DNA from: Cryobacterium sp.
GTDB taxonomy: Bacteria > Actinomycetota > Actinomycetes > Actinomycetales > Microbacteriaceae
Direction of reading: 5' to 3'
Length of the DNA stretch: 32,237 nucleotides
Assembly (NCBI GenBank): GCA_014376815.1
Contig: JACMQV010000095.1
Coordinates: 1 to 32,237, forward strand
In this document: positions 3,628-9,785 of the stretch, piece by piece
Numbering within the stretch: the first letter of the stretch is position 1
Layout of the letters: every line of letters starts with the position of its first letter
Notes under the pieces: model-generated
What the model was told of the DNA's origin: nothing
The model's database searches: none
What the model saw: only the letters and a program-made list of their open reading frames with translations
Made by a program: the position numbers and the translations under genes

Positions 3628-4131
3628 TCACCAGCCGAGCGTGCCGGGCTCCCCCTTGAACGGGCCGACCACCCGGGACGTGATCCAGCCGCCATAGAAG
3701 TCGCCCGGCTGCGGCTGCACCCGTTCCCCGTTGACTGTGCATTCCTCCATCCGACCGGGATACAGGGCAATACGGTCGACGAGCGCCTCATACCCCTTCG
3801 CGGGCGCAGGGTAGGTCCAGGCGGCCGATTCCTCCCGGCGGCCGGGTGCGACCACGCTCAGGTACGACGCCCGCCCTTTGTATTCGCACCACGAGTTCCC
3901 GGCTGCCGGCTCGAGGCTTCCCGGCGGGAAGGCCGCGCGAGGCAGGTAGTAGACCGGGGGGTGGCTCGTCTCGAGTACCCGGATCACATCATCGGTATCG
4001 ACGATGACGTCCCCGCCGAACCTGACGACGACGCGGTCGGTGCTCGGCTCTACCCGGGGCGGTCGGGGGTAGTCCCAGACCGACTCCTGTCCGGGGCCCG
4101 GCACGGCCGGTGTGACACGCTTCTGCTTCAT
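3628..4131 (-). CDS. DUF427 domain-containing protein
   Basis: 167 residues with the typical DUF427 features: VWDYPRPPRVEPS near the N terminus, GDVIVDTDDVIRVLETSHPPVYYLP, a WCEYKGRASYLSV core, then YPGRMEECTVNGERV near the end. The family is a small beta-rich fold of unknown biochemical activity that is common in actinobacteria. Its ATG overlaps the devR stop codon (ATGA), so it is translationally coupled to the two-component system and is the third gene of the devS-devR operon. That placement suggests it is co-induced with, or acts within, the redox/dormancy response, but the sequence shows no catalytic motif I can name. Confidence 0.9.
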   Translation of the reverse strand: MKQKRVTPAVPGPGQESVWDYPRPPRVEPSTDRVVVRFGGDVIVDTDDVIRVLETSHPPVYYLPRAAFPPGSLEPAAGNSWCEYKGRASYLSVVAPGRREESAAWTYPAPAKGYEALVDRIALYPGRMEECTVNGERVQPQPGDFYGGWITSRVVGPFKGEPGTLGW

Positions 4132-4811
4132 TCAGACAGCGTACCGGCAGGCGCGCGTCGAATTCGAGGAGCGGAACCTCCCTCGCGCCGGTGCAGATCC
4201 GCACCGAAAACAGCGGCCTGGGTTCTGCGTTCCATCCCGAGTTTGCTGAGCACGGCCGACACGTAATTCTTGACGGTCTTCTCGGCCAGTTCCAGCTCGA
4301 GGCCGATCTGGCGGTTGGTGAGGCCCCGGGAGATGAGGTCGAGAACCTGTCGCTCCCGAATGGTCAGAGTCTGGACAGCCCGGTCTTGCCCGCCCGCGCT
4401 CAGCATCCCGACGATGCGCCGGGCGGTCAGATCGGTGAGCAGTCGCTCGCCGCGGGCCACCCGGCGGATGCCGTCGATCAGCCGATCACCACGGATCTCC
4501 TTCAAGACGTAACCCGCGGCCCCTGCCGATGCGGCGGCGCACAGGGCCGCGTCATCATCGAAGGCTGTGAAGATCAGGCAGCGGATGCCCGGGTCCCGGG
4601 AGAGGATCTCGCGGCAGACGTCGATGCCGCTTCCGTCGGGCAAGCGGACGTCGATGACGGCGACGTCCGGCCGGGTGGCGGCGACCCGGGCCACCGCCTC
4701 CCGCCTTGTCCCCGCCTCGCCCACGACCTCCAGGTCTGGTACGGCATTGATCAGGTGGACGAGTCCCTGCCGAACGATTTCGTGGTCGTCCACCAGGAAG
4801 ACCCGGGTCAT
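4128..4811 (-). CDS. devR: DevR/DosR-like NarL-family response regulator
   Basis: 227 residues. The receiver domain (1-120) has the acidic pair VDDH, phospho-acceptor D54 in VIDVRLPDG, T82 and K104; these positions equal those of mycobacterial DosR. The LuxR-type helix-turn-helix (about 148-210) reads LTIRERQVLDLISRGLTNRQIG...AEKTVKNYVSAVLSKLGMERRTQAAVF; the recognition helix AEKTVKNYVS is, as far as I remember, the same as in DosR, whose Lys/Lys/Asn there contact the GGGACT half-site. I moved the start from 4841 to ATG 4811, which overlaps the devS stop (ATGA) and gives the standard MTRVFLVDDHE start. The C terminus is extended by an Arg-rich tail. It probably activates the three DevR-like boxes in this window. 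Confidence 0.93.
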   Translation of the reverse strand: MTRVFLVDDHEIVRQGLVHLINAVPDLEVVGEAGTRREAVARVAATRPDVAVIDVRLPDGSGIDVCREILSRDPGIRCLIFTAFDDDAALCAAASAGAAGYVLKEIRGDRLIDGIRRVARGERLLTDLTARRIVGMLSAGGQDRAVQTLTIRERQVLDLISRGLTNRQIGLELELAEKTVKNYVSAVLSKLGMERRTQAAVFGADLHRREGGSAPRIRRAPAGTLSE

Positions 4812-6490
4812 CGGCGCGCCGCAACGGTTGCGTCCGACCACCGGGCCGACCAGCGCAGCCGGGTGCCCTGAGGCTCCCGGTCGTCAAGGGAGACGCTCCC
4901 CTGCCACCGCTCCGCACGGGCCGCCAGATTGGCGATTCCGCTCGAGCGCCCGGCGTCCGTCCGGCCCCGGCCGTCATCACTGATCTCCATCGTGATCGTG
5001 TCGGCGACGACGGTCAGGCTCACGACCGTCTCGCTGGCCCGGGCGTGCCTGACCACGTTGGCCAGTCCCTCGCGGACGGCTGCCACGAGGTCTTCGGCCA
5101 GGTCGGCCGACGTGATCAGGTCGATCGGGCCCGAGAAGATCACCCTCGGCGGATGATCGAACAGGGGGCCGAGTTCGGTCAGCACATCGATGACACGGTG
5201 CCGCAGGGACGGCCGGTCGGGGTGGGCCGGGAGGGTCAGGGCGAAGATCGACGTGCGGATCTCGACGATCGCGGCATCCAGCGCCTTGACCTCCTCGTCG
5301 AGCCGCAGACGCAGCGCATGTTCGGTTATCTCCCCGCCGATGGCCTGCAGGGCCATTCCGGCGGCAAATACCCGTTGGATGACACGGTCGTGCAGGTCCC
5401 TGGCGATCCGGCCGCGATCCTCCAGCACCGCCAATCGGGCCAGGTCGGCCCGTCCCACGGCGAGCTCAAGCGCCACGCTCGCCTGCTCCGCGAAGTCCGA
5501 CGCCATCGCGAGGTCCGAGGCGCTGAACCGGGCCGCCCCGCGGAGTCGCGAGGCCGTCAGTATCCCGTGCGGAACGCCGGCCGCCAGGGGGATGATCAGC
5601 GTCGGTCCGCAGAACAGGGCGGAGTCGGGGCTCGACCGGACGCCGTCACCGCCCTCCAGGAGAAGCGGCTGCCCGCCGGACAGTGACCGGCCGCACACGC
5701 TCCCGGCGCTCGGGAAGACAAGCCCGGATGCCTGCCCGGCGAGTGGCCCCCTGGCGATCTCGACGACGAGTGAGGCCTCGTCGCCGCCAGGGACGACGAC
5801 GCAGACCAGCTGCGCATCCGCTGTCTGGGCGAATCGGTCGGCCAGGAGGGCCAACGAGTCGTCCGAGCGATCGGTCAAAAGGGCCGCGCTGACCTCGGCC
5901 GACGCCGCCGACCAGCGCTGGCGCCGCTGGCTCTCATCGAACAGCAAGGCGTTGTCCATTGCGATCCCGGCCGTCGCCGCCAGGGCGCACAGCAGGTCCT
6001 CGTCCTCGTGATCGAATGCGCCGGGTACCATGCTGGCGAGATACAGGATGCCGGAGACCTCGCCGCGCACCCGCACCGGAACAGCCAACAGGCTCTGCAT
6101 CAGCGGATGCACAGCCGAGAAACCGGCCCAGCGAGAGTCGACCCACGCCCGGTTCAGCCGAAGCGGAACCGGATCATCGATGAGGGCGCCCACCAGACCG
6201 GGGGCCCCGGCCAGCCGACCGCGCCACTCGGCACCGTCCCCGGCTGCCCCGATCTGGACGCACTGCTCGAAACGGCCATTCTCGGTGGTGGTGACGAGCG
6301 CCCCGAACTGCGCCGGACACAGGTCGACCGCCGCGTCGACGATCCGCCGCTGCGCGGAGGGAAGGTCGAGCTGGCCGACGATGGCCTGGCTGGCCAGAAG
6401 AAGGCGGCGCAGGCGCGCGTCCTGCTGGTTCACCAAGTCGGCCCGGTCGAACGGGGTGGCATCCGGGACGGAGAACTCGCGCTGGTGCAT
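4808..6490 (-). CDS. devS: DevS/DosS-like GAF-GAF sensor histidine kinase
   Basis: 560 residues: N-terminal linker, GAF-A (about 45-185), GAF-B (about 205-345), a HisKA_3 dimerisation domain with phospho-acceptor H367 in RIARDLHDRVIQ, and an HATPase with N478 (EGLANVVRHARA) and DDGRG. No membrane segments are visible, so it is a cytosolic sensor. In GAF-A, HPLM puts His128 and LYL puts Tyr150 with a spacing of 22, the same as DosS heme ligand His149 and distal Tyr171. Heme binding and sensing of O2, NO or CO is therefore plausible but inferred. It is the first gene of an ATGA-overlapped operon with devR and DUF427. Its upstream region is shared with a divergent USP gene and contains a DevR-like box. 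Confidence 0.92.
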   Translation of the reverse strand: MHQREFSVPDATPFDRADLVNQQDARLRRLLLASQAIVGQLDLPSAQRRIVDAAVDLCPAQFGALVTTTENGRFEQCVQIGAAGDGAEWRGRLAGAPGLVGALIDDPVPLRLNRAWVDSRWAGFSAVHPLMQSLLAVPVRVRGEVSGILYLASMVPGAFDHEDEDLLCALAATAGIAMDNALLFDESQRRQRWSAASAEVSAALLTDRSDDSLALLADRFAQTADAQLVCVVVPGGDEASLVVEIARGPLAGQASGLVFPSAGSVCGRSLSGGQPLLLEGGDGVRSSPDSALFCGPTLIIPLAAGVPHGILTASRLRGAARFSASDLAMASDFAEQASVALELAVGRADLARLAVLEDRGRIARDLHDRVIQRVFAAGMALQAIGGEITEHALRLRLDEEVKALDAAIVEIRTSIFALTLPAHPDRPSLRHRVIDVLTELGPLFDHPPRVIFSGPIDLITSADLAEDLVAAVREGLANVVRHARASETVVSLTVVADTITMEISDDGRGRTDAGRSSGIANLAARAERWQGSVSLDDREPQGTRLRWSARWSDATVAARR

Positions 6491-6536
6491 GGCCTGGGTC
6501 CGCCTCTCGGTCTGGTGTCGGGGATTCTACTCGCGT

Positions 6537-6550
6537 GGGACTTTCGCCCC
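6537..6550 (+). promoter_or_regulatory. DevR-box-like site between devS and USP gene
   Basis: GGGACTTTCGCCCC resembles the DosR/DevR consensus GGGACTWWAGTCCC, with a perfect left half-site. It lies 59 nt before the ATG of the plus-strand USP gene and 46 nt before the ATG of devS on the other strand, so it could serve both. Its near-identical copy is at 9332-9345. The link to DevR is inferred from the conserved recognition helix. Confidence 0.6.
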
Positions 6551-6609
6551 TTTCCGACACTTCCCGGCGCTGTCACCCTGAGGGGCGACGCGAGAGCAGG
6601 AGCGCATTC

Positions 6610-7515
6610 ATGGTTGAAAAAGTCATCGTCGCCATCGACGGAGGGCCCGCCAGCAGGGCTGCACTCGAGTGGGCTCTCGATCGAGCCCTGACGGCCGAGC
6701 GGCTTCAGTCGACGCCGGTGACCCTCGAGCTGACGACGGTGGTGGAGTTGGGCTGGTCCCCCGCCGGCGCACCGCAGGACGATTTCCAGCCCGCCTACGA
6801 GCGTGCGCTCGCCGCGGCCGTCCGACGGGTCGAACAGGCCGCGCCCCAGTGCCGGAAGACCGGGTACATCCGCCACGGCGTCCCCACCGACGAACTCGTG
6901 AGGGCTTCGCAGGCCGCTGACCTGCTCGTGATCGGAACCAACAAGACCGGCGCACTGGCCGGGGCCGTCTACGGGACACTTCCCCTGCGCCTCGCCGCCC
7001 ATGCCAAATGTCCCGTCATCGTCGTCCCCGCGGCGTGGGCACCGCGCACCGGGCACGTCGTCGTCGGATTGGAAGACGATGCGACGGCAGCCGGGGCGCT
7101 GTTCTTCGCCGCCCGCGAGGCCGCGCGTTTCGGCCGCCCGCTCAGCCTCGTGCACGCCTGGGAAATCCCGGCCACGGTAGCGGTCGAATTCGGGGCCGTG
7201 ATTCCCTACGACGAGTTGAGGCAGGCGCACACCGAGATCCTCGCCTCCCGCGCAGGGCGGGTCCGGGCAGCGAATCCGGCGTTAGAGGTGACGGAAGTCC
7301 TGGAACAGGGCCCGCCCGCGTACGTGCTCGTGGAGGCGGCCCGGGACGCCGCTCTGATCGTCGTCGGGACCCACGGCAGGAGTGCCGTCGGCAGCTTGAT
7401 CCTCGGATCGGTCAGTCACGACGTCCTGCTCAACCTGCCCTGCCCGGTCGCGGTCGTTCCCCGCCCCGACGATGCCGGTGACCGCGACCACCCGGCCGGC
7501 AAGGATGCGCCGTGA
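6610..7515 (+). CDS. universal stress protein, two tandem UspA domains
   Basis: 301 residues with two Usp folds (about 3-140 and 150-290). The second domain keeps the ATP-binding signature G-x2-G-x9-G-S (GTHGRSAVGSLILGS); the first has GTNKTGALAGAVYGT, in which the second Gly is replaced by Lys. Tandem USPs of this kind are core members of the mycobacterial DosR regulon (for example Rv2623), where they bind ATP and affect growth arrest. The ATG at 6610 (MVEKVIVAIDGG) was chosen over the track start at 6535 because of GCAGGAG 7 nt upstream. It is divergent from devS, with a DevR-like box 59 nt upstream, and is followed by a second USP gene with a 4-nt overlap. Confidence 0.93.
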   Translation: MVEKVIVAIDGGPASRAALEWALDRALTAERLQSTPVTLELTTVVELGWSPAGAPQDDFQPAYERALAAAVRRVEQAAPQCRKTGYIRHGVPTDELVRASQAADLLVIGTNKTGALAGAVYGTLPLRLAAHAKCPVIVVPAAWAPRTGHVVVGLEDDATAAGALFFAAREAARFGRPLSLVHAWEIPATVAVEFGAVIPYDELRQAHTEILASRAGRVRAANPALEVTEVLEQGPPAYVLVEAARDAALIVVGTHGRSAVGSLILGSVSHDVLLNLPCPVAVVPRPDDAGDRDHPAGKDAP

Positions 7516-8342
7516 GTACCTACTACATCGGTGCCGACGGCTCCGAGCCGAGCCGGGCCGCGATTCGCTGGGGGTTGTCCCGGGCAGCCGAGGATGACTC
7601 CCCCGCCGTCCTGGTCAACGTCGTCGACGACGAGTGGGGTCTCCTCGGCCCGGCCTACGCGCAGGATGCCGAGCGCCATGCCGACGCCCTGCCGGCCGAG
7701 GATCTCGCCAGCGCGAAGGAGACGCACCCCGGTCGCGACATCGGCGCGATCATCCTGCACGGCGCGCCTGCCTGGACCCTCGCCGCGCTTCCGATGCCCG
7801 AAGATACCCTGGTCGTGGGAACCCACAAGACCGGGTTCCTGCGTGGACGTGTGCTCGGATCGCGCAGTGTGCAGATCGCGGCTGCGGCACGGTGCACGGT
7901 GGCGGTCATCCCCGACACGACGTTCGACACCCGGCGCGGGGTCGTCGTCGGGGTGGACCGGTTCGAGGGCTCGACGTCGGCCGTCCTCCGCGGCGCGCGC
8001 GAAGCCGACCGGCTCGGCCAGGAACTCATCCTCGTGCATACGCCGCCGGCTCGTCCCCCGGCGCAACCGTCGCCCGATCTGCCCGAGAGCACCACCTCCG
8101 CGCAACGGCTTCTCAGCGAGGCTGCGGAGCTTGCCGCCGCCACCGCGCCACACGTCGTCGTTCGCCGACGTGTGGCGCACCGAGACCCGGCGGAAGCGCT
8201 GCTGGACGCGGGCGCCGGCGCATCCCTGATCGTTGTGGGGGTGTCCCACCCGCATGGTGCGACACAGTCGGTGATCGGCTCGGTCACCCACGATGTCCTG
8301 ATGAACATCAACGTGCCCGTTCTCATCGCCCGGGCCGTCTGA
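7512..8342 (+). CDS. universal stress protein, two tandem UspA domains
   Basis: 276 residues with two Usp domains (about 4-135 and 140-275). The GTG start overlaps the stop of the preceding USP gene (GTGA) and has AAGGA upstream, so the pair is translationally coupled. The ATP-loop motifs are weakened: GTHKTGFLRGRVLGS in domain 1, and GVSHPHGATQSVIGS in domain 2, where the G-x2-G spacing is lost. It may bind nucleotide poorly or in a different way. It shares the DevR-like box of the upstream gene through the operon. A short 15-bp tandem repeat follows before the convergent third USP gene. Confidence 0.92.
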   Translation: MSTYYIGADGSEPSRAAIRWGLSRAAEDDSPAVLVNVVDDEWGLLGPAYAQDAERHADALPAEDLASAKETHPGRDIGAIILHGAPAWTLAALPMPEDTLVVGTHKTGFLRGRVLGSRSVQIAAAARCTVAVIPDTTFDTRRGVVVGVDRFEGSTSAVLRGAREADRLGQELILVHTPPARPPAQPSPDLPESTTSAQRLLSEAAELAAATAPHVVVRRRVAHRDPAEALLDAGAGASLIVVGVSHPHGATQSVIGSVTHDVLMNINVPVLIARAV

Positions 8343-8380
8343 GTCGGGCGTCGGTCATTGCGGCCGGTCACGCGCTGTCG

Positions 8381-8432
8381 GTCACACGTCTTTCGGTCAC
8401 ACGTCTTTCGGTCACACGTCTTTCGGTCACAC
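8381..8432. repeat. 15-bp tandem repeat, about 3.5 copies
   Basis: GTCACACGTCTTTCG is repeated exactly three times (8381, 8396, 8411), followed by a partial GTCACAC that runs into the stop codon of the minus-strand USP gene at 8427. A diverged copy (GTCACGCGCTGTCG) precedes the array. It lies between convergent stop codons and is not a CRISPR, having no spacers. Confidence 0.9.
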
Positions 8433-9272
8433 CGCCCGGATCACGGCCACCGGGCAGGGCATGGTCAGCACGATGACGTGACTGACCGAGCCGAGCCAGA
8501 AGCGGGCGAACCCCTGCCGGGTGTGGCTGCCCACGACGAGCAGACGCGCGTCGGTCGCCGCGGTGACGAGCGCGTCGACGGGCAGCCCCAGATCGAGCCG
8601 GAGGTCCAGCTCCAGGTCGGGGTAGAGCTCGGCCAGGCCCGCGACCGCTTCGGCCAGAACCAGGCGATCCGCGTCATCCGGTTCCATCGGCCAGTCGATC
8701 ATCGCCCCCTCTTCGGTCCACGGAGCGGGGGCGCTCCAGCAGTACACGGCGGTCAGCCGCTGCCCCAGGCGGTCCGCCTGCTCGGCGGCGAACCGGACAG
8801 CGGCAAGCGAAACCTCGGAGCCGTCCACGCCGACTACGACGCCGCTGCCGTTCCTGTCCGCACGTTCGGGGACGATGACGACGGACCCGGGTGCATGCGC
8901 CGCGATCTGCGCGGACCGGGTGCTGAAGAGATAGTCGCGAAAACGTCCGAGAGCGTGTGAGCCGATCACCAGCAGTTCCGCACCTTCTGCCCAGTCAGTC
9001 AGCGCCCCGGTCGCGGAACCTTCAAGCACGGTTGCGTGGAGATTCGGCCCGAGCGCCCGCGGCGCTGCGTCCGCGATCTCCCGGGCGAGACTGCGTTCCG
9101 CCTGCTCCCGCGCCCTGTGGGTGTACCCCTCCGCGATATTCGCCCAGTTCTCGTCGACGACGTGCACCAACTCGACGGCGAGACGCCGCGGTCGCGCGTA
9201 GTCGAGGGCCCAGCGTAGGGCCTCCCGGTCCGATGGCCTGCCGCTCATCCCGACCACAACGCGTTCGTCCAT
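8427..9272 (-). CDS. universal stress protein, two tandem UspA domains
   Basis: 281 residues, third tandem-domain USP of the block, on the opposite strand and convergent with the other two. Domain 1 spans about 1-140 (GSHALGRFRDYLFSTRS) and domain 2 about 142-281 (GSHTRQGFARFWLGS near the C terminus), with partial ATP-loop consensus. MDERVVVGMSGRPSDREALRWAL is a typical Usp start; the ATG is preceded by GGAGAAGG. A DevR-like box (GGGACTTTCGGCCC) lies exactly 59 nt before the ATG, the same spacing as for the USP gene at 6610. The stop codon lies inside the last partial copy of a 15-bp tandem repeat. Confidence 0.93.
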   Translation of the reverse strand: MDERVVVGMSGRPSDREALRWALDYARPRRLAVELVHVVDENWANIAEGYTHRAREQAERSLAREIADAAPRALGPNLHATVLEGSATGALTDWAEGAELLVIGSHALGRFRDYLFSTRSAQIAAHAPGSVVIVPERADRNGSGVVVGVDGSEVSLAAVRFAAEQADRLGQRLTAVYCWSAPAPWTEEGAMIDWPMEPDDADRLVLAEAVAGLAELYPDLELDLRLDLGLPVDALVTAATDARLLVVGSHTRQGFARFWLGSVSHVIVLTMPCPVAVIRAV

Positions 9273-9331
9273 GACCTTCTCCGTTCCCCCGCAACGGAGT
9301 CAATGCTGACGGGACAGAACCGAGCCTGAGA

Positions 9332-9345
9332 GGGCCGAAAGTCCC
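9332..9345 (-). promoter_or_regulatory. DevR-box-like site upstream of third USP gene
   Basis: On the minus strand GGGACTTTCGGCCC differs from the site at 6537 by one base and lies 59 nt before the ATG at 9272. It overlaps a small hairpin (CCCGGT-ctc-ACCGGG at 9343-9357), which could instead be a weak terminator for the gene ending at 9376. Confidence 0.6.
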
Positions 9346-9375
9346 GGTCTCACCGGGGGCGGCGACAGCGGGACG

Positions 9376-9714
9376 TCAGTAGTCGAACTCGTCGAATTGC
9401 GGGGAATCGAGCCCGTCACCAGTCCACGATACCCGACCGCTCGCTGTGCAGGACAGGGCCTTCCGGCGCAGGTCGTCCGACATCTCCGAGTCCACCAATT
9501 CCTCGCGGACGGAGTCGGCGGTGACGCAGACCAGCTGGCTGAAGGCACCGATCAGGAACTGGGCGCGACCGGGCAGCCCGGTCTTACCCAGGACCGGGAT
9601 ATCGACCACGTCGACCCGGCTCCAGGTGCTCAAAGCCTCCGCGTAGTACATCACAGCATCCGCCAGCTCGCTTCCGGTGACGACGGAGCTGCCGGAATGG
9701 AAAATGCGCTTCAT
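9376..9714 (-). CDS. small protein of unknown function, putative DevR-regulon member
   Basis: 112 residues starting MKRIFHSGSSVVTGSELADAVMYYAEAL. I do not recognise a named domain; similar short proteins occur, as far as I recall, as hypothetical proteins in Microbacteriaceae. The N terminus has an alternating beta/alpha pattern, the middle is hydrophobic (AQFLIGAFSQLVCV), and the C terminus is acidic (DSPQFDEFDY). No signal peptide or clear membrane segment is visible. It sits between the USP gene and the GAF-ANTAR gene on the same strand, with a DevR-like half-site 57 nt upstream of its ATG, which suggests co-regulation with the USPs. Function unknown. Confidence 0.75.
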   Translation of the reverse strand: MKRIFHSGSSVVTGSELADAVMYYAEALSTWSRVDVVDIPVLGKTGLPGRAQFLIGAFSQLVCVTADSVREELVDSEMSDDLRRKALSCTASGRVSWTGDGLDSPQFDEFDY

Positions 9715-9771
9715 GGAAACCTCGCTAGCTCACAGAAAAAGAACACGTGGAGCCAGGGTCCGGGGCGTGGT

Positions 9772-9785
9772 ATAACTATAGGCCC
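9772..9785 (-). promoter_or_regulatory. degenerate DevR-box-like site upstream of the unknown gene
   Basis: On the minus strand GGGCCTATAGTTAT matches GGGACTWWAGTCCC at 10 of 14 positions, with a good left and central part and a poor right end. It ends 57 nt before the ATG at 9714, close to the 59 nt seen twice elsewhere. The TATAGTTATA core could also contain a -10 element, so regulation by DevR is tentative. Confidence 0.4.

Follow-up and report, generated by a model that had tools for sequence, protein, structure and literature searches.

A probable DevR/OsdR-type two-component stress regulon in Cryobacterium with two predicted operators upstream of universal stress protein genes

Results

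Gene content and arrangement of the locus

The stretch of DNA analyzed here, hereafter the window, comprises 32 kb of a genome assembly of 3.1 Mb in 301 contigs (G000). It contains the following genes of interest:

3628-4131, minus strand: DUF427 protein, final gene of the devS operon, overlapping the end of devR and conserved beside devR in relatives
4128-4811, minus strand: devR-like response regulator with receiver and LuxR/GerE DNA-binding domain, best PDB match 3c3w
4808-6490, minus strand: devS-like sensor kinase, GAF-GAF-HisKA_3-HATPase
6610-7515, plus strand: USP1, tandem-domain universal stress protein (USP)
7512-8342, plus strand: USP2, overlapping USP1 in a single operon
8427-9272, minus strand: USP3, tandem-domain universal stress protein
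9376-9714, minus strand: 112-aa protein without a known family, encoded by a genus-wide core gene that has its own promoter

The genes for the DUF427 protein, DevR and DevS form one overlapping operon on the minus strand, from which USP1-USP2 diverges, and the minus strand also carries USP3, the 112-aa gene and a gene for a GAF-ANTAR protein. Between the convergent USP2 and USP3 a unit like ggtcacacgtctttc is repeated in tandem (about 8378-8440). Cryobacterium sp. 1639 matched several genomes of the same genus at about 82% DNA identity across 17.6 kb, and the relatives compared in the following are very probably Cryobacterium.

The best PDB match of the response regulator is DevR of M. tuberculosis (3c3w, E 9e-67, 55% identity), followed by VraR (5.5e-39), and with its receiver and LuxR-type DNA-binding domain it is nearer to DevR than to other NarL-family structures. 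Residues D8, D9, D54, T82, K104, K179, K182, N183, T198 and Q199 are kept; of these, D54 corresponds to the phospho-acceptor of M. tuberculosis DevR, and K179, K182 and N183 to its DNA contacts. This similarity supports the original prediction of a DosR-like regulator next to the boxes described below.

Boxes 1 and 2: sequence, rarity and conservation

Three similar boxes had been proposed as DevR sites, upstream of USP1, USP3 and the 112-aa gene. Their coordinates and their distances of 59, 59 and 57 nt from the start codons are correct as read, but the proposal holds for boxes 1 and 2 (by rarity, orthologous conservation and promoter spacing) and not for the third. The features in question are:

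6537-6550, plus strand: predicted DevR box 1, GGGACTTTCGCCCC, between the divergent USP1 and devS, exact in the window
6574-6579, plus strand: CACCCT, the putative −10 hexamer of the USP1-USP2 operon, beginning 23 nt past box 1
6524-6529, minus strand: TAGAAT, the putative −10 hexamer for devS-devR-DUF427, at 7 nt from box 1
9332-9345, minus strand: predicted DevR box 2, GGGACTTTCGGCCC, preceding USP3
9303-9308, minus strand: CAGCAT, the putative −10 hexamer of USP3, beginning 23 nt past box 2
9772-9785, minus strand: claimed box 3, GGGCCTATAGTTAT, rejected here, overlapping TATAGT at 9775-9780, the −10 element of the 112-aa gene

In the whole window only boxes 1 and 2 differ from GGGACN4GTCCC by no more than one base, and two of the three exact occurrences of GGGACTTTCGNCCC in the 3.1-Mb assembly fall in the window. 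The locus thus bears a mark of DevR/DosR/OsdR regulons, namely palindromes of the form GGGNCN4GNCCC that precede USP genes in the neighbourhood of the regulator. Comparison of the intergenic regions across relatives, which had been suggested as a check, found both boxes kept at orthologous USP genes: each of the 14 examined genomes that bear the module, that of the window counted, has box 1 before USP1, and box 2 precedes USP3 in seven genomes, in three of which it is degenerate. Because the relatives share ancestry, the count of 14 and that of 21 sites used below are not independent. In nine near-complete relatives GGGACNTTCGNCCC has one to five matches per genome, and 11 of the 23 listed matches fall in the module; the reversed control gave five in all nine genomes. 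We regard boxes 1 and 2 as real DevR/OsdR-type operators in the sense of predicted binding sites.

Spacing and promoter grammar

The distance of exactly 59 nt between box and ATG holds for the window's genome and its closest relative, but in the other relatives it amounts to 78-82 nt (USP1) and 61-73 nt (USP3), and as a rule it is unsupported. The constant spacing is that from box to −10 hexamer and not from box to ATG: at 20 of 21 sites NANNNT, with A2 and T6 conserved, starts 23 nt past the box, and the runner-up offset occurs at eight. When this hexamer is read as −10, box 1 comes to lie at about −49 to −36 with its centre at −42.5, a position from which activators make contact with RNA polymerase. 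The boxes would thus cover the −35 region of their target promoters, as judged from the −10 kept at that distance, the USP hexamers being weak and the USP transcription starts inferred. In M. tuberculosis, the −35 element is likewise overlapped by the proximal Dev box (PMC3029386).

Towards devS, TANNNT stands 7 nt away from box 1 in 14/14 genomes, the sequence around it varies between subgroups, and no other offset on that side is conserved among the 14. If TANNNT is the −10 of devS, box 1 covers about −33 to −20 and repression is therefore predicted.

The box-to-hexamer spacing recurs across actinobacteria. In 80 devS loci, whose counts are not independent because many of them come from related Streptomyces, the exact motif occurs at 320 sites (103 in the reversed control), the offset of the −10 peaks at 23/24 nt (34 and 37 versus a mean of 6.4), and 71 motif sites against two in the control are left when a −10 at this offset is required. 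These 71 sites precede USPs, devR homologues and alcohol dehydrogenases. A second offset peak at 46 would fit paired boxes. The devS-side arrangement gives no peak in the other genera of this set.

Genome-wide searches and other candidate targets

The whole genome was scanned by pattern searches with the reversed pattern as control, and at one to two mismatches the motif was not enriched over that control; therefore no large regulon is claimed, and the searches point to its absence, with two to three boxes found. Outside the window, a perfect palindrome, GGGACTTTCGTCCC, precedes a gene for a DUF6326 membrane protein at the end of contig C269 (L003:1501-1514, G000). A box is retained there in the relatives G026 and G033 (GGGACCCTTGTCCC and AGGACTTTTGTCCC), followed after 24 or 23 nt by a hexamer that resembles a −10; its counterpart in the genome of the window, GGCCAT, is without the conserved A. 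The DUF6326 gene is the likeliest additional target predicted for DevR. Since this conserved box lies on a different contig, the module is not fully self-contained, contrary to the original prediction.

Several further sites were discarded. A perfect palindrome at C85:6027 before a gene of PEP synthase/PPDK type, resembling the OsdR target SCO0208, was rejected because the box is not part of the corresponding stretch in the closest relative; of the sites with one mismatch, those on C102, C214 and C238 run into coding sequence or start codons, and that on C168 precedes no clear gene.

The genus also holds a second DevS-like system (L089, L090, L091), with two boxes 46 bp apart before a USP gene, one of which is exactly GGGACTTTCGGCCC.

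The third box and the 112-aa gene

That all three boxes, the one at 9772-9785 included, are DevR sites and that the 112-aa gene belongs to the regulon is very improbable. The half-site GGGCC and the distance of 57 nt in the window's genome speak for it, but box 3 mismatches four of ten half-site positions, which is chance level, as more than 2,000 14-mers of the window (both strands) match equally well or better. In the aligned leaders of relatives its place is that of a plain −10 element (TATAAT, TATACT, TAGAAT), which is conserved, while GGGCC is not. Moreover, the 112-aa gene occurs in nearly all genomes listed for the genus, usually at more than 50% identity and weakly in a few, and in some of them it and the devS homologue are on separate contigs, which argues against its being a target through box 3.

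Between −10 and start codon of the 112-aa gene the leader GCCCCRGACCCYGGCTGCAC (9715-9775, minus strand), directly downstream of the GAF-ANTAR gene, is strongly conserved throughout the genus. Its RNA fold had almost no covariation support (0.02 kcal/mol) and the Rfam search of the region returned tRNA only, with no match for the leader, so that no RNA element is claimed. The 112-aa protein matched nothing in Pfam or NCBIfam; weaker relatives of it exist in other genera of the family.

The sensor kinase

The kinase has the domain order of DevS, and its H128 and Y150 align with the haem His and the distal Tyr of DevS, which we take to be His149 and Tyr171. In the closest relative, G026, the haem-aligned His is replaced by Asp, and in G008, G012 and G025 (L088, L086, L087) the gap between box and kinase is too short for a GAF-A domain while the boxes are kept; the kinase protein of G008 indeed has no GAF-A domain. 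Because relatives have lost the haem His or the whole GAF-A and keep the boxes nonetheless, an oxygen or NO input of the kinase is uncertain, and the redox or dormancy function named in the original prediction cannot be taken as its settled input.

Discussion

The locus is best explained, and with good probability, as a DevR/OsdR-type two-component stress regulon that would work as follows. The GAF-domain DevS-like kinase would phosphorylate the DevR-like regulator of the NarL family, and the phosphorylated dimer would bind both palindromes (GGGAC TTTC G[CG]CCC). These have their centres at about −42.5 and are followed closely by weak −10 elements ([CG]ANNNT) for which no −35 is recognisable. 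Bound DevR would then recruit RNA polymerase, and USP1-USP2 and USP3 would be transcribed. DevR on box 1, at about −33 to −20 of the devS-devR-DUF427 promoter, may at the same time block that promoter and damp the synthesis of the system itself.

For comparison, OsdR of S. coelicolor bound a probe of the SCO5978-5979 intergenic region, and its predicted site before SCO5979, CGGGACCTTCGGCCCT, contains GGGACCTTCGGCCC (PMC5069765). This 14-mer is identical to the boxes of several relatives and one or two bases away from boxes 1 and 2. That the boxes serve another NarL-family regulator, with the adjacent DevR acting elsewhere, is improbable: such regulators are numerous in genomes of this kind and the genus has another DevS-like system (G029-type) that carries this box, but the DNA-contact residues of the regulator are identical to those of DevR, the box fits known DevR/OsdR sites and it sits in the very promoter from which the devS operon is read. 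The notion that boxes 1 and 2 arose by chance in GC-rich DNA draws on the finding that weak variants of the motif are no commoner than the control in the window's genome; it is refuted for these two by orthologous conservation, fixed spacing and recurrence across genera, and its probability is negligible.

The sign of the feedback is a more delicate matter. Our tentative proposal, to which we give somewhat less than an even chance, is that box 1 is a two-way switch, at which the USP operon is activated from −42.5 and devSR repressed from about −26.5, and that within the genus the haem input domain has degenerated or disappeared. The negative autoregulation contained in it is predicted from position alone and runs contrary to the activating feedback described in M. 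tuberculosis, where phosphorylated DevR autoregulates (PMC3029386), and in S. coelicolor, where OsdR activates its target promoters, osdR being among those tested (PMC5069765). Both systems favor the opposite reading, that box 1 activates both divergent promoters and that the true start of devS lies elsewhere. This positive autoregulation is less likely than not, as the TANNNT at 7 nt is conserved without exception and as the sole devS-side offset, and activators do not usually have their centre near −26.5. If the two-way switch applied, it would represent DevR-family regulation with negative feedback, in which the output wiring outlives the signal.

Among known systems, the locus resembles OsdK-OsdR of S. 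coelicolor (SCO0203/SCO0204; PMC5069765) in its DevR-family regulator and in adjacent USP genes under palindromic boxes. It differs in scale, OsdR being predicted for 27 transcription units (PMC5069765) as against the two to three boxes found in the genome of the window, and in feedback, since OsdR is an activator at its own promoter (PMC5069765), whereas box 1 is placed to repress devS. With DosT/DevS-DevR of M. tuberculosis it shares a regulator of 55% identity with the same contact residues and a GAF-GAF-HisKA_3 kinase, and with the dormancy regulon of that species the targeting of USP genes and a box that would overlap the −35 region. However, paired boxes are frequent in mycobacterial promoters and the USP gene Rv3134c lies in the devRS operon of M. 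tuberculosis, whereas at the present locus the boxes are single, the genes diverge, targets are few and the input domain lacks conservation. A regulon of this type outside mycobacteria, as originally envisaged, is supported by the DevR-like regulator with its USP boxes (similarity, conservation and spacing), but its kind is not new, for DevR regulons beyond mycobacteria are already known from OsdR of Streptomyces coelicolor.

Conclusions

Across actinobacteria, the rule of a box followed after 23-24 nt by NANNNT tells boxes that are likely to function from fortuitous ones (71 sites versus two in the control). With strong comparative support, the analysis extends the DevR/OsdR dormancy-type regulon to what is very probably Cryobacterium, where the sign of the feedback and the sensor input offer a testable contrast with the tuberculosis system.
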